Shown here one piece after another: positions 43,594 through 64,000 of a DNA stretch of 64,000 nucleotides. Position numbers and translations under genes: made by a program. This DNA comes from a virus, in the IMG/VR virus record IMGVR_UViG_3300025652_000043, positions 19,042-83,041 of that record; one strand, given 5' to 3'. The notes beneath the pieces are model-generated. The model searched no databases and was not told the DNA's origin. It saw only the letters and a program-made list of their open reading frames with translations. Position 1 is the first letter of the stretch. The number at the start of each line of letters is the position of its first letter.

Positions 43594-43917
43594 TTAGATA
43601 CCATGTGTTGTGTAACATGTATCCATCATCTCATTTAATGTCCACTCTACTTCATGTTGAAGTTCTTCTTCAGGTGTATAGTCTTCATCAGGATATTCCA
43701 CTTCTGCTAGAGTTTCATAAGACTCTCCAGTTTCATGGTCTTTCCAAGTTAAGACATACTGGTCTTCACTTATTCTATTAACAGTGATAGAACAACATCC
43801 TCTCTTACTTTGTAAGATGTAATGGTCATTTGATGGTTTGCTTAGGAGAGTCAGTCCAACTAGGACTGCAACAACTAAGACTAGTACGGGCAATATATAT
43901 TTGTCTTTCATATTCAT
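43594..43917 (-). CDS. small single-pass membrane protein, 107 residues
   Basis: An N-terminal hydrophobic helix (ILPVLVLVVAVLVGLTLL) directly after a basic start (MNMKDKY), then a soluble tail with two Cys (KRGCCSITVNRISEDQ). The tail is acidic (PDEDYTPEEELQHEVE). The start could be at 43917 or 43911. Probably inner-membrane; function unknown. Box-A copy 7 lies immediately upstream without a hairpin. Confidence 0.55.
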   Translation of the reverse strand: MNMKDKYILPVLVLVVAVLVGLTLLSKPSNDHYILQSKRGCCSITVNRISEDQYVLTWKDHETGESYETLAEVEYPDEDYTPEEELQHEVEWTLNEMMDTCYTTHGI

Positions 43918-54517: not shown

Positions 54518-55975
54518 ATGGCAAAAGGATTAGTAGGTAATAAGCTTATTACCAAACAAATGCCTTGGCATGCAAACATGACTGAACTCAATCATTTGGG
54601 TAAAGCTCTTATTGCAAAGCCAGATAAGTTTGAATCCAAAATTGGGCAGTTATTTACTGCCGAAAGGTATTCAGATAATCCTTTGACAGCTATGGCTATC
54701 AAAGAGGGCAGACAAGAAAACACCAATTCCTCTATGTGGGAATGGGACATGAGACCAGCTACAACTAGACCACTAGTGGTTTTAGAAGATGTACAAGCAG
54801 GTGACACAACTAAAGGTAAATACAAAGCAGTATTTAAAATTAAGTTGGATGAAAACTGGTATGAGCCAGGAGATATTATTACTCCAGGAACTTCTAATAA
54901 GAAGTACCAATGTAGAGTACAAGAGGAAAGAGTTCCTCATGGAAAAGGATACATCTATACATTACGTTTAATGTCAGATAATCCTCAGCTTTTTGTCCCA
55001 GTACAATATTTTAAAGCAGGAACACAATGGGGGAAACTTTACTCTCAATATGCTGAAGCTGAAACACAATCTGGTAGCACACAATATGCTTTGCCTATCT
55101 CTATGGCAAACAGAATGTCAAGATTCAGAAAGAAATACAAAGTAACAGGAGATGCTCATGATGAAGTATTAGCTGTGAAAATTCCAGATTCAATGGGCAC
55201 GTACCATGATTCATGGGTTAAGTTTGCTGAAGTTGAATACTGGCAACAGTGGTACAGAGAAATTGAAAGAGGATATTGGTACTCACGTAGTACAGATACA
55301 GTTCTTTCAGCTAATGGTAGACCATTAAGAACAGGACCAGGATTACAAGAGATGTTAGAAGACTCTCACGTTCAAAGATTCTCACATTTAACTGCAAGGT
55401 TAATTGAAGAATATTTGATGGGTATTTTCTACTCTAGAGTTAAGCCAGGTGCAGCAAGAAAAATTAAAGGATATTCAGGTGAATATGGAATGATTAACTT
55501 CCACAGAGCTATTCAAGATTGGGCACAAAAAACTGGATTTATTCAGGTAGTTGACCAAATGTTTATTCAAAAAGGTAGTTCAAGCTATAATGATAACTCA
55601 TTATCTGCAGGTTACCAATTCACTAAGTATAGAATGGCTAATGGAGCTGAACTAGAATTGATTCACAATCCTCTTTATGATGATAGAGAAATCAATTTTG
55701 AAATAGACCCTGTTACAGGTTATCCTTTAGAGTCTCAAAGAATTACATTCTTAGATTTCTCTGGACAAGGAAAATCATCTAACTGTAGAATTGTTAACAA
55801 GAATAAGTCATATAAACTTGGGTATGTTGCTGGTTTATGTAATCCTTATGGACCTAATGATGGTAAATTAATGAGTCACTCAGGTAACTTCTATGAAATG
55901 CATGTTGAGAAACAATCAGGTATGCATATTGAAGATATTGGAAGATGTGGTGAATTGATTTTATCAAGAAACTAA
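54518..55975 (+). CDS. major capsid protein (HK97 fold, crAss type)
   Basis: 485 residues, the expected size for crAss-like major capsid proteins (about 490). It starts MAKGLVGNKLITKQMPWHAN and continues with beta-rich and aromatic stretches (YWQQWYREIERGYW). It is followed by a terminator, as is common for this highly expressed gene. Codon use is less AT-rich and more uniform than in neighbours, consistent with strong late expression. Assigned from position, size and resemblance to crAss-like capsid N-termini. Confidence 0.8.
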   Translation: MAKGLVGNKLITKQMPWHANMTELNHLGKALIAKPDKFESKIGQLFTAERYSDNPLTAMAIKEGRQENTNSSMWEWDMRPATTRPLVVLEDVQAGDTTKGKYKAVFKIKLDENWYEPGDIITPGTSNKKYQCRVQEERVPHGKGYIYTLRLMSDNPQLFVPVQYFKAGTQWGKLYSQYAEAETQSGSTQYALPISMANRMSRFRKKYKVTGDAHDEVLAVKIPDSMGTYHDSWVKFAEVEYWQQWYREIERGYWYSRSTDTVLSANGRPLRTGPGLQEMLEDSHVQRFSHLTARLIEEYLMGIFYSRVKPGAARKIKGYSGEYGMINFHRAIQDWAQKTGFIQVVDQMFIQKGSSSYNDNSLSAGYQFTKYRMANGAELELIHNPLYDDREINFEIDPVTGYPLESQRITFLDFSGQGKSSNCRIVNKNKSYKLGYVAGLCNPYGPNDGKLMSHSGNFYEMHVEKQSGMHIEDIGRCGELILSRN

Positions 55976-59525: not shown

Positions 59526-61037
59526 ATGGCAAGTATAATAAAACAAATAGCGTGGTTATATGGCAGAGTAAAATGCCTTACTGAAGAGATACAAGAATGT
59601 TGTGGTTTAAATACTGGTAATAGAATATTATCAGGAAATTTACGTTGGGATACTGGATACAGATATCAAGTTGTAGGATTAACTTATGAATTTGAAGGAA
59701 GTACTTATGAAATACCAACTACACTATTAACTTTTTCTCCCCCTATAGAAGGGCTTTCAAGACAAGATGTTGTTTATGTAAACAGTCAAGGTCAACTAGG
59801 AATATTAGAAGGGGAGTCTGCTCTTATTTCTGCTGAACCCATTTTAAATGAAAGCATACAACTTAAGTTTACTGTAATTGATATTAACTCTGTAACCTCA
59901 AACTCTCAATCCAATAAGATATTAACTGGAGGTTATATTTCATGGAGTGGAGGATTTACACATTTTATAACCCCTTTAACTTATATTATTCAAAATGACT
60001 CATATGCAAGTTTAGGAGGTAGTGTCACTTTTACAGATAGTGATGCCACATATAATAGAAAAGATGCTTTAGTAGTAGATACTAATGGTGACTTAATAAT
60101 TATTACAGGAGTGCCTTCAGAAATACCTGCAGAGCCAGTTATAGATGAACTATTGTATTGTTTAATATCTTATGTTTCTATTCCAGCTAATTCAACAGTA
60201 ATTGAAAATGTTGCACAAGAAGTTGTATACAGAGAAAATGCTGGAGACCCTACAGAATGGGAAACAAGTACAGATTCACTCCTAATAGCATTTGAAGATA
60301 ATACTTTCCCTAATAATGGTGTAAACTGTATTATACAATCAGAAGAAAATATAGCTGCTTCACTTAAATCAATTACATTTAAAAAACCTTCTACAGTTAC
60401 TTTTTCAGATTATACTGCATTAGAATTTTATATTAGATTAGATAAAGCAGTACAAAATAATGATTATCTTATTTCAATATCAATGACTGTTGATGGAGAA
60501 ACTGCTGTTGATAGACATATTTTATTAAGTGGAAATAGTAATTATGACCAAACTTTAGCAGGGGAATATCAAAGAGTTGTAATACCTATGGAATTTTTTA
60601 CAAATGTTCCTGCAGAATTTGATTCAATAATATTTACTTTTACAGATGGGTATCATGGAGTTTTTAGATTAGATGATATTTCTCTTGTAAGTGGAATTGG
60701 AACACCTCCTACTTCAGTAAATACTTATTTAACATTAGAAGATACTGATGATATAAACTATTCAGGAAAACAAGACTATGTTCCACAAGTAAATCAGTCA
60801 GAATCAGGACTTATTCTTGTAAGAAAGTATTGGATTAGAATAGATAATAATGATATTAGTGCTGACTTACATAAAGCAGAAGGTAATAGAAGTCTAGGAG
60901 ATATAGAAGATGGAGACATTGTAAGAAGTGCAATATTTAAAAGTAGTAATATATTTTTACCTTATGGTGAATATGATTCTGGAATAGGTCTAAGTACAGA
61001 TATAGACTCTTATATTATACCTTTAATGTTTAATTAA
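59526..61037 (+). CDS. tail/baseplate protein with duplicated domain and CBM-like C-terminus
   Basis: 503 residues. After a short start with two Cys (QECCG), two copies of a beta domain follow: residues about 33-113 (NRILSGNLRWDTGYRY to ESALISAEPIL) and 131-212 (NKILTGGYISWSGGF to SEIPAEPVI). The C-terminal part (about 255-395) includes LEFYIRLDKAVQ and VFRLDDISLVSG, a jelly-roll pattern like carbohydrate-binding modules. The very end is a separate tail (VRKYWIRIDNNDISADLH). It may be a baseplate or fibre-attachment protein that binds host polysaccharide. Inferred function, structural pattern seen. Confidence 0.6.
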   Translation: MASIIKQIAWLYGRVKCLTEEIQECCGLNTGNRILSGNLRWDTGYRYQVVGLTYEFEGSTYEIPTTLLTFSPPIEGLSRQDVVYVNSQGQLGILEGESALISAEPILNESIQLKFTVIDINSVTSNSQSNKILTGGYISWSGGFTHFITPLTYIIQNDSYASLGGSVTFTDSDATYNRKDALVVDTNGDLIIITGVPSEIPAEPVIDELLYCLISYVSIPANSTVIENVAQEVVYRENAGDPTEWETSTDSLLIAFEDNTFPNNGVNCIIQSEENIAASLKSITFKKPSTVTFSDYTALEFYIRLDKAVQNNDYLISISMTVDGETAVDRHILLSGNSNYDQTLAGEYQRVVIPMEFFTNVPAEFDSIIFTFTDGYHGVFRLDDISLVSGIGTPPTSVNTYLTLEDTDDINYSGKQDYVPQVNQSESGLILVRKYWIRIDNNDISADLHKAEGNRSLGDIEDGDIVRSAIFKSSNIFLPYGEYDSGIGLSTDIDSYIIPLMFN

Positions 61038-61038
61038 A

Positions 61039-64000
61039 ATGAAAATTAAAATGAAAAAATATTTAAGCCTTTTAGTCTTGTTGATGCTTACCATTAATAT
61101 GGTTCAAAGTCAACAAACAGAAAGAATTAGTGCAAGTCATAATGCTGTTTTATATAGAGAATCTAGTACTACTTGTAATGACCCTATTATTTATGAAATA
61201 CCTAATCAAACAGTTGTTTACAAAAACTATTGTCTAGATAAATTTAGAGAATGGACAGGAACACTTTGGAGAGATTTTGGCAATAATAAACTATATAAAA
61301 CATATTCTCATAGTGTACAAAAATTTGATGCTGGTCAAGGTCCTATAGATGTTTGGTTAGGAATGAAAACATTGACTACTTCTAGTCCTGTATTTAATGT
61401 AAATACTGGTCAAGCAGATTTAGTAAATGTAGTTGCTTCAACAGCTATTAGTTCTTCTATGCTTTCTCCTAGAGATACTTATTTATCTAATATTCAATTT
61501 CAAGGAAATGTAGGTACTCCTATTTCTATAGCTTTAATAATGTTATATGATAGTACAACAACAATATTATATGAAAATAATACTGTAAATGATGAGAGCA
61601 ATGCTAATTTTCTTTATGACCCTGATACTACAACTGTAATACCAGAAGGAGCAATATTATATTTTTTAATAAAGCCTTCAAGTACAGGACTATATGGTTC
61701 TTTTCAATTTCATATAACAGAAGTTTTAGGAACAGAGTTATCTGAATATGATTCAGGAGGAGGAACTGGAGTGTCTAATCATGCTCTTTTAACTAATTTA
61801 GATTATTCAAATGCAGCACATACAGGTTTTGAGCCAGAAAAAGGTGCAGATGATTTTTATGTAACTGGTGCTGAAAAAGTAGTTTTAAGTAATACAAGTA
61901 ATTCAAATTCAGGAGATCAAGATATTGATGGAATAGTAGATAATGCTACTGCAATAGGAGTTATACAAGGAGAACAAACTACTCAAAATACTAATATCTC
62001 TAATAATGCAACCAACATAGGAGATAACATAACTAATATAGGAGATAATACTACTAATATAGGAAATAATACTTCTAACATCTCTACTAACACCACTAAT
62101 ATAACTAACAATATAGATAATATCTCTACCAACACAACAGATATTTCTAATAGAGTTCCTTATGAAGGGGCTACTACAGATGTAATTTTAGGCAATAATA
62201 CCCTTACTTCTATAGACTTTATTGATAGTGATGGTACTCTTACCTTAACAGGTTCTACTGTAAGTTTAGATAATAATATTACAGGTAATATTTATTACTC
62301 TAATGCTGATCCTAGTACTGCAACATCATTAAGTGTAGCTAATTTAAAGAAGGGTGGGTTTGCAGTTTATTATTCTAATACACCAACTATAGCACCTAGT
62401 TTTTCTAATGCCACTATTTATGGGGTAAACACATGGCAAGCAAATGTAACTTTACAAATTTATGTTTATTCTCATGATGGTATAACTGCTCAATATTTCT
62501 TTGCCAATGCAATAGCAGGTGTAGAAGGAGGTGGGTACGTACCTTATATCAATGCTGTAGATGATGTTAATTTAGGTCTTAATAATATTCTAGCTACAAA
62601 ATTTATAGATATTGATGGTACTGAAAATAAAACAGGTGCAGTTATAGAATTAGATGATAATGTAACAGGTACAATTTATTACACTAGAGCAAATCCTAGT
62701 GATAGTTTGACTTTAAGTGTGACTAATTTAAAAGCAGGCGGTTATTCTGTTTACTATTCTAATACTGAAACAAAGCCAGAATTTACTAATGCTACACTAA
62801 ATGGTACAAGTACTTGGGTAGCAAATGTAACTATGCAGATTTTTATATATACTCATGATGGAACTACTGCTGAATACTTCTTTGTTAATGCAACATCTAC
62901 ACCCACTTTAGATGAGGTTTTAACAACAGGAAACATAGGCACTACTGGTATACCAATAATACTCAAGGGAATAGGGTCTAGTGAAGCGAACTATACAGGT
63001 GATTATGCAATATTTAATTCTAGTTTAGGGCAGGGAGCAATTACCTCTTTGTTTTCAAGAATGAGTGCGTTAAATGGTGATTATACTGATTACAGACATA
63101 ACAATATTGTTTTTGCAGACTCTACTTTAAATATTTCGCAAACGTTAAACATGTCTAGTGTTATACAAGATGGTACAATTACAATACCTAATGTAACTGG
63201 TGAAATGGGGATAGTAAATGGTTATAAACTTCCATTAGCAGATGGCACAGCAAATCAAGTAATTAAAACTGATGGTGCAGGTGTATTAACTTTTGGAGAT
63301 GAATCTCCTAGTGAAGCTGAAACAGACCCTACATTTACAGCTTCTCCTGCTTTTTCAACTACAAATGCAAACGGAACAAATACAGGTGATAATGCAAATA
63401 ATTCTCAGTATTCAGGTCTTGTTACTAATGCCACTCATACTGGTGATGTAGCAGGTTCTACTGCTCTTACAATACAGACTGATGCTGTTGATATTTCAAT
63501 GCTATCTGCAACTGGAGCTGCAGGCAGTACTACCTATTTAAGAGGTGATAATACTTGGGCAGTAATACCACCTGCTGGAGCAGAAATTAATGATCTAACA
63601 ACAGAAGTAACTTGGACTGATATACCAATAGACAATGTACCAACAGGAACAACAGGTACAACTGTTGCCTTTGGAAATCATTTACATAATAACGTTTACC
63701 AACCTCTTTTAGAAATCTATTCTGAAAGTGGAACTTTAGCAGGTGGAGATGGTATAGGTCTTATAGGAGACTTTAATCCTGTTGGAAATACTGGCTCTGG
63801 TATATATTTTGACCAAAATTATGATGATGGTAAATCTTTTATAGATTGGATAGAAATACATTCAGCAGATGACCTTTCAATATCTTCTATTGGTTCTGAA
63901 ATTTCAATGGGAGGAGGAATTAATTTGACAGGTAATTCAATAACTTCCACTTCTACGGGTAGTCAAGAACATACTGGTTCTAATTTAACTTTTCAAGCTA
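61039..64000 (+). CDS. long tail fibre with signal-peptide-like N-terminus (3' end beyond window)
   Basis: At least 987 residues, open to the window edge. The N-terminus MKIKMKKYLSLLVLLMLTI then a VQSQ|Q site looks like a Sec signal peptide. Residues about 315-375 hold repeats of the type NIGDNTTNIGNNTSNI and then NISTNTTDIS, seven-residue-like Asn/Ile/Thr repeats typical of trimeric fibres. Two copies of a beta domain follow (about bases 62161-62540 and 62541-62910; both contain TGxIYY and VYYSNT). Later the pattern GAAGSTTYLRGDNTWAV is a classic phage fibre repeat. It probably binds the host surface. The signal-like start is odd for a cytoplasmically assembled fibre. Confidence 0.75.
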   Translation, partial: MKIKMKKYLSLLVLLMLTINMVQSQQTERISASHNAVLYRESSTTCNDPIIYEIPNQTVVYKNYCLDKFREWTGTLWRDFGNNKLYKTYSHSVQKFDAGQGPIDVWLGMKTLTTSSPVFNVNTGQADLVNVVASTAISSSMLSPRDTYLSNIQFQGNVGTPISIALIMLYDSTTTILYENNTVNDESNANFLYDPDTTTVIPEGAILYFLIKPSSTGLYGSFQFHITEVLGTELSEYDSGGGTGVSNHALLTNLDYSNAAHTGFEPEKGADDFYVTGAEKVVLSNTSNSNSGDQDIDGIVDNATAIGVIQGEQTTQNTNISNNATNIGDNITNIGDNTTNIGNNTSNISTNTTNITNNIDNISTNTTDISNRVPYEGATTDVILGNNTLTSIDFIDSDGTLTLTGSTVSLDNNITGNIYYSNADPSTATSLSVANLKKGGFAVYYSNTPTIAPSFSNATIYGVNTWQANVTLQIYVYSHDGITAQYFFANAIAGVEGGGYVPYINAVDDVNLGLNNILATKFIDIDGTENKTGAVIELDDNVTGTIYYTRANPSDSLTLSVTNLKAGGYSVYYSNTETKPEFTNATLNGTSTWVANVTMQIFIYTHDGTTAEYFFVNATSTPTLDEVLTTGNIGTTGIPIILKGIGSSEANYTGDYAIFNSSLGQGAITSLFSRMSALNGDYTDYRHNNIVFADSTLNISQTLNMSSVIQDGTITIPNVTGEMGIVNGYKLPLADGTANQVIKTDGAGVLTFGDESPSEAETDPTFTASPAFSTTNANGTNTGDNANNSQYSGLVTNATHTGDVAGSTALTIQTDAVDISMLSATGAAGSTTYLRGDNTWAVIPPAGAEINDLTTEVTWTDIPIDNVPTGTTGTTVAFGNHLHNNVYQPLLEIYSESGTLAGGDGIGLIGDFNPVGNTGSGIYFDQNYDDGKSFIDWIEIHSADDLSISSIGSEISMGGGINLTGNSITSTSTGSQEHTGSNLTFQA

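Follow-up and report, generated by a model that had tools for sequence, protein, structure and literature searches.

Sec-type signal peptides on fibre-like genes of a crAss-like phage and other Bacteroidota phages

Tailed-phage assembly is taught as a cytoplasmic process. What, then, is a predicted signal for export doing at the start of a long fibre-like gene among the structural genes of a crAss-like phage, a type of phage with relatives that are abundant in the human gut? The gene lies at the end of an 83,041-base IMG/VR contig, the final 64 kb (64,000 nucleotides) of which is the stretch of DNA analysed here and is referred to as the window. The original prediction recognised a good Sec signal on an otherwise fibre-like protein, presumed cytoplasmic assembly of fibres, and proposed that the segment may be a membrane anchor or a trimer-registering hydrophobic tip, or derive from a host surface-protein gene.

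Judged by its proteins the window phage is crAss-like: the capsid protein matches the Crassvirus family (E 2.5e-134), and PHROGs has families that match the portal and large terminase. Among named phages its closest relatives are those of Flavobacterium psychrophilum, Fpv3 being one example (61% capsid identity). The host is probably a Bacteroidota bacterium.

Most signal peptidase I substrates of Bacteroidetes are described as exposing a Gln that is then cyclised – the Q-rule (PMC5837995, PMC10653852) – and the window signal has this form. Signals in phage proteins have been touched upon from several sides. Signal peptides in two Bacteroides phages are mentioned in general terms (PMC5723332), and five genes of Porphyromonas gingivalis phages that follow the same rule, without assigned function, are interpreted as host-envelope modifiers rather than fibres (PMC10367356). 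A one-sentence remark notes that the lyase-bearing proteins of Cellulophaga phages Ingeline and Nekkels carry ‘signaling peptides’ (PMC8776804); these are, as in the window, signals in large phage proteins, and the text around the remark does not discuss the Q-rule, export or assembly. The expectation in another study, where the lack of signal peptides in phage DGR target proteins is taken as support for their phage origin (PMC6199706), is the opposite of signal-bearing phage fibres. Searches with narrow phrases, covering few subscription journals, did not turn up signal-bearing virion fibres described as a class, or described in crAss-like phages. Such signals are thus mentioned in passing in one paper, and the pattern of signal-bearing fibres in Bacteroidota phages appears to be new.

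The fibre-like gene and its predicted signal

The features of the locus, all on the plus strand, are as follows.

54518..55975, plus strand: major capsid protein, Crassvirus family
59526..61037, plus strand: adaptor-like fibre protein of 503 aa, lacking a signal, with a weak DUF4815 match
61039..64000, plus strand: fibre-like ORF of at least 987 aa, its 3′ end missing at the contig end
61039..61110, plus strand: predicted signal peptide for Sec and signal peptidase I, 24 residues long, with cleavage predicted at VQS|QQ and Q at +1
61111..61758, plus strand: start of the predicted mature protein and N-terminal region
61939..62163, plus strand: Asn/Thr/Ile-rich repeat of the NTTNIxN type, stalk-like
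62158..62904, plus strand: tandem domain of ~120 aa, two copies, 55% identical
63538..63558, plus strand: single LRGDNTW motif, residues 834-840

Gene order places the ORF within the structural cluster (capsid, portal, terminase). The stop codon of the adaptor-like gene ends at 61037 and the ATG of the fibre-like ORF follows at 61039, leaving 1 nt between them; the frame is still open at the window end, which is the contig end. ‘Fibre’ is a working description with no family assignment behind the name, as no fibre family was matched in Pfam, PHROGs or NCBIfam; we use it because of the position of the gene, its repeat, the 55% domain duplication, and a 29-residue segment in common with a fibre-like ORF of another phage (see below). 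The Asn/Ile repeat originally noted is real (Asn/Thr/Ile), and the supposed LRGDNTW repeat occurs just once in the part of the gene present, at residue 834. No homologues of the fibre were found in phages by tblastn, and none were confirmed in viral contigs by pattern search; one weakly similar stretch (30%, E 0.001) was seen, in the contig called G010, within a set of 40 records comprising the window's contig, Fpv3, and 38 of 80 capsid-bearing contigs. A 32-base stretch near the end of the gene has no exact match in any viral contig that would continue it. Single-sequence structure predictions for 61111..61758 (pLDDT 45.1) and for the duplicated domain (pLDDT 37.5) are unusably poor.

The N-terminus reads MKIKMKKYLSLLVLLMLTINMVQS|QQTERIS. 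Its n-region is rich in K, the core spans nine residues with a mean hydropathy of 3.21, and a -3/-1 site precedes a Q. Small residues at -3 and -1 together with Q at +1 give VQS|QQ the Q-rule form, and it is a better site than the VQSQ|Q originally proposed, from which it differs in lying one residue earlier. No lipobox was found at this position, where +1 is Q and our scorer gives a Q site. With that scorer – our own, not SignalP – none of 50,000 shuffles of the first 45 residues reach the score of the ORF, and its 5.31 is the highest of the contig among ORFs of at least 90 codons between stops, the second (4.04) belonging to a 107-aa minus-strand ORF. The signal that was originally recognised lies far above chance. 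The simplest reading of the sequence is a working Sec/signal peptidase I signal, which we regard as very probable, and export of the window fibre is well supported by the sequence. The 107-aa ORF (43594-43917, minus strand) has a strong N-terminal hydrophobic segment and could either encode a small membrane protein or have arisen by chance.

Could the hydrophobic segment instead stay on the protein, anchoring it to a membrane or acting as a trimer-registering tip, with the fibre never leaving the cytoplasm? A 24-residue hydrophobic N-terminus could, on sequence grounds, associate with a membrane, but both versions leave unaccounted for the signal-peptidase site that different fibre genes of Bacteroidota phages keep, and the Gln that follows it, a residue with a known importance after cleavage, and close sibling phages have fibres without a signal in the same slot, so that no tip is needed there. 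We consider retention improbable.

The third proposal, taken in the form of a recent capture from the host that left the signal as a functionless relic in the phage, draws on the resemblance of the signal, stalk-like repeat and head-like domains to secreted Bacteroidota adhesins and on a more AT-rich start (GC 0.285 in the first 240 codons vs 0.335 in the remainder). Against it, codon usage follows that of the neighbouring phage genes (r = 0.98) and gives no sign of recent capture, a single scan of contigs from bacterial genomes turned up nothing related to the duplicated domain, and many phage fibre genes keep signals. We rate recent capture as very unlikely, although a host gene is possible as an old origin.

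Signal-bearing genes in other phages

Signals on fibre genes recur, patchily, in crAss-like phages. A capsid scan yielded 80 loci, 24 of them continuing for 8 kb or more downstream of the capsid gene, and among 1262 ORFs from these loci and a stretch of Fpv3, 13 score at least 3.6. Two of the 13, in contigs G011 and G010, are fibre-like.

G011 (L032 19361-end, extended in L106:8001-11795): fibre-like ORF of at least 1265 aa with NTAIG-type repeats, predicted signal SLTQA|QTAEF
G010 (L030 822-1793, the same as L086 10875-11846): fibre-like ORF of 323 aa, predicted signal LVVKA|QDTIT

Both lie directly behind other fibre-like genes and end the cluster, as in the window, and both have Q-rule signals. 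The G011 protein has the 29-residue segment in common with the window fibre (52% in direct comparison), and its N-terminus is weakly similar (38% over 47 residues, E 0.003 in a three-sequence set); its body is otherwise unlike. Direct comparison of the G010 protein with the window fibre gave no significant similarity, and its fibre cluster, unlike that of the window, lies upstream of the terminase gene. The window contig (at 64000) and the G011 contig (at L106:11795) both stop inside the signal-bearing fibre gene, which may reflect a gene that is population-variable and breaks assembly.

The closest siblings of the window phage (L007-L009, capsid 93%) have the same structural neighbourhood and the same motif at the N-terminus of the adaptor-like protein (MASIIKQIxxLYxxVKCL, variants of which recur in L007-L009 and L013), but the fibre behind their adaptor lacks a signal. 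Fpv3 likewise has this structural gene neighbourhood, with a fibre in the slot in which no signal was found; its gp20 begins, by eye, similarly to the adaptor motif. Elsewhere in crAss-like contigs, Q-rule signals occur on proteins of 160-163 aa encoded upstream of the capsid gene (L033:3173-3664, L034:3175-3666 and L072:3591-4073), which are outer-membrane-like by eye, and on a 135-aa protein outside the structural cluster of G037 (L102:15591-17134), beside two ORFs with lipoprotein-like N-termini. The crAss-like Cellulophaga phage phi14:2 encodes a protein annotated with an OmpA domain (gp002, L116:283-1278) that has a signal-like start followed by ...NAQ.

Cellulophaga phage Ingeline_1 was reached by a search with the body of the G011 fibre (L032). 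Three to five clustered signal-bearing genes are present in each of six Cellulophaga phages, which belong to three families (Duneviridae, Assiduviridae and Pachyviridae).

Ingeline_1 gp31-34: four consecutive signal-bearing genes
phi19:1 gp101-104: signal-bearing fibre-cluster genes
phi10:1 gp091-095: signal-bearing fibre-cluster genes
phi19:3 gp087-090 and gp094: signal-bearing fibre-cluster genes
phi13:2 gp084, gp086 and gp087: signal-bearing fibre-cluster genes
Nekkels_1 gp53-55: signal-bearing fibre-cluster genes

These are the phages with signal-bearing fibre-cluster genes among 20 named Bacteroidota phages. In the other 14, no signal-bearing fibre was found with the strict scorer in the stretch fetched (Fpv3, immuto_13-6C, phi12:1, phi17:2, phi14:2, crAss001, phi38:1, 11b, phi18:1, P2559S, P12002L, P12024S, RAP44 and B40-8). 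Six of 20 is not a frequency, because many of the phages were read in part and the sample is partly hit-led. The strict core rule missed phi19:1 gp104 and phi10:1 gp095, which a looser rule found, so that a negative in the other phages applies to the strict rule. Outside Bacteroidota, relatives of the G011 fibre in Pelagibacter, Roseobacter, Prochlorococcus and Methylophilales phages lack a signal in all four cases examined (87 records matched), as does the relative of its body in Flavobacterium phage immuto. A search for phi19:1 gp102 in bacterial genome contigs gave no relative.

Are these signals more than chance hydrophobic starts? In all, 32 of 1168 distinct ORFs of at least 200 aa score 4.0 or more, compared with a mean of 0.50 for shuffled N-termini. 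Because this first scorer rewards Q at +1, the Q site was tested without that bonus and free of circularity, N-termini being chosen by charge and hydrophobic core only, with the cleavage site ignored. Selection on n- and h-regions gave 44 ORFs with 33 unique N-termini from 1131 distinct ORFs of at least 200 aa. A valid -3/-1 site followed by Q is present in 22 of the 33, against a mean of 4.53 and a maximum of 12 when the residues of the same segments were permuted 1000 times, though these are non-independent events, several N-termini being variants of one module. The Q site is found in 21 of the 23 N-termini of proteins of at least 300 aa, and nine of the 11 N-termini lacking it come from proteins of 253 aa or fewer. 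To judge from these sequences, the signals look used.

The signal also appears to move with what follows it. Residues 1-58 of Ingeline gp33 match the phi13:2 and Nekkels lyases at 67-69%, and the remainder of the query is unmatched there; a signal and adjoining stretch in common, with the rest differing, suggests that signal and docking N-terminus travel as one unit in Cellulophaga phages. Separately, a 65-bp stretch is 91% identical between phi14:2 gp092 (record 72808-72872, L117), a virion protein gene of a crAss-like phage that lacks a signal, and the signal-bearing phi19:3 gp087 (L109:6722-6786), a trace of module exchange between these unrelated phages.

Virion annotations and the fate of the exported proteins

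Phages phi19:1 and phi10:1 (KC821607 and KC821618; Assiduviridae) are siphovirus-like and their fibres have no detectable homology to the window fibre, but they resemble it in having clustered fibre- or lyase-like genes with Sec-type signals. For phi19:1 gp101-104 and phi10:1 gp091-094 the mass-spectrometric evidence is a GenBank note, ‘annotation based on experimental MS/MS proteomics analysis’; the window protein carries no such note. Among the phi19:1 proteins noted as MS-detected or part of the virion, exactly gp101-104 of 13 examined have a signal (the tape measure gp096 being omitted as its sequence was cut), and among those of phi10:1 exactly gp091-094 of 11 (gp087 omitted for the same reason). 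Seven of the eight MS-noted signal-bearing proteins have Q at +1, and phi19:1 gp104 has K. These relatives cast doubt on the premise of cytoplasmic fibre assembly, and it is by analogy with their annotations that window-type fibres would be placed in virions.

The main rival to a place in the virion is an exported protein that acts on the infected cell, at its envelope or surface – in receptor masking, capsule degradation or help in release – and whose relatives reach virion preparations by carry-over. The signal itself indicates export, some of the relatives are annotated as pectate lyases, and the Q-rule proteins of P. gingivalis phages have been suggested to be host-envelope modifiers (PMC10367356). 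Yet the bodies of these proteins resemble tail fibres and are encoded in tail or fibre gene clusters, and all signal-bearing ORFs of at least 300 aa in the phi19:1 and phi10:1 clusters are MS-noted except phi10:1 gp095, which is annotated by similarity only. Three small signal-bearing genes (phi19:1 gp061, phi10:1 gp058 and phi10:1 gp106) have no MS note, a pattern that argues against simple carry-over of exported proteins, weakly so because small proteins easily escape MS. A secreted role outside the virion is, in our estimate, less likely than the account favoured below, by about half.

A possible route of assembly

We favour, at about an even chance for the account as a whole, the reading that this crAss-like phage infects a Bacteroidota host and that the protein, as its fibre or receptor-binding protein, is exported, cleaved and capped, and joins the virion outside the cytoplasm. 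A working Sec signal would take the fibre to the periplasm, signal peptidase I would cut at VQS|QQ, and the new N-terminus would be capped as pyroglutamate. Given the virion labels on its relatives, the fibre would reach the particle only once exported. The simplest occasion would be lysis, with the collapse of the inner membrane bringing exported fibres together with particles that bear an adaptor made in the cytoplasm (the product of 59526-61037, for example); this signal-less adaptor would be the docking site. We infer cleavage in vivo, the presence of the window protein in the virion, and the place and time of attachment. The signal-less slot of L007-L009, the 14 of 20 named phages in which no signal was found, and the K at +1 of phi19:1 gp104 count against this account, as do the lack of signal peptides reported for phage DGR target proteins (PMC6199706) and the non-independence of the 22 Q-site N-termini.

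More tentatively, and with a likelihood somewhat short of even, some Bacteroidota tailed phages may use two compartments. Heads and tails would be built in the cytoplasm, while fibres would take the host's route of Sec, signal peptidase and glutaminyl cyclase, reach their mature form beyond the cytoplasm, and be picked up by virions as the cell lyses; the signal, together with the docking segment at the mature N-terminus, would be exchanged as a unit. Coat proteins pIII and pVIII of filamentous phages are virion proteins made with Sec signals, as proposed for the window fibre, but these phages are extruded through the membrane, an assembly principle unlike that of tailed phages. Were fibres to be exported and attached at lysis or later, they could be exchangeable between particles or co-infecting phages, and could fold with periplasmic chemistry, decoupled from particle assembly, with a bearing on the host range of crAss-like phages. 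The two-compartment idea is directly testable with cultured Cellulophaga phages.

Two reasons for export were considered and are not supported. Disulfide formation was prompted by the only two cysteines in the part of the window ORF present (residues 46 and 65, within 61111..61758), but mature signal-bearing fibres have 0-5 cysteines with inconsistent parity; as a group they have 2.98 cysteines per 1000 residues vs 6.53 in comparison proteins, a difference we disregard, the comparison set being small and mixed. Periplasmic O-glycosylation would use the motif D[ST][AILVMT], found 38 times vs 62.4 expected in 19 signal-bearing proteins, and 40 times vs 46.4 expected in a comparison set of 18 that includes phi19:1 gp104 and phi10:1 gp095, later found to be signal-bearing. 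No NCBIfam match to a type IX C-terminal sorting domain was found in 10 signal-bearing proteins, those of the window and G011 lacking their 3′ ends.

A small gene with a hydrophobic N-terminus lies directly before the signal-bearing cluster in phi19:1 (gp100, L110:6871-7020), Nekkels_1 (gp52, L115:6963-7106) and phi19:3 (gp086, L109:5680-5892). A role for these small membrane-like proteins as assembly helpers is possible.
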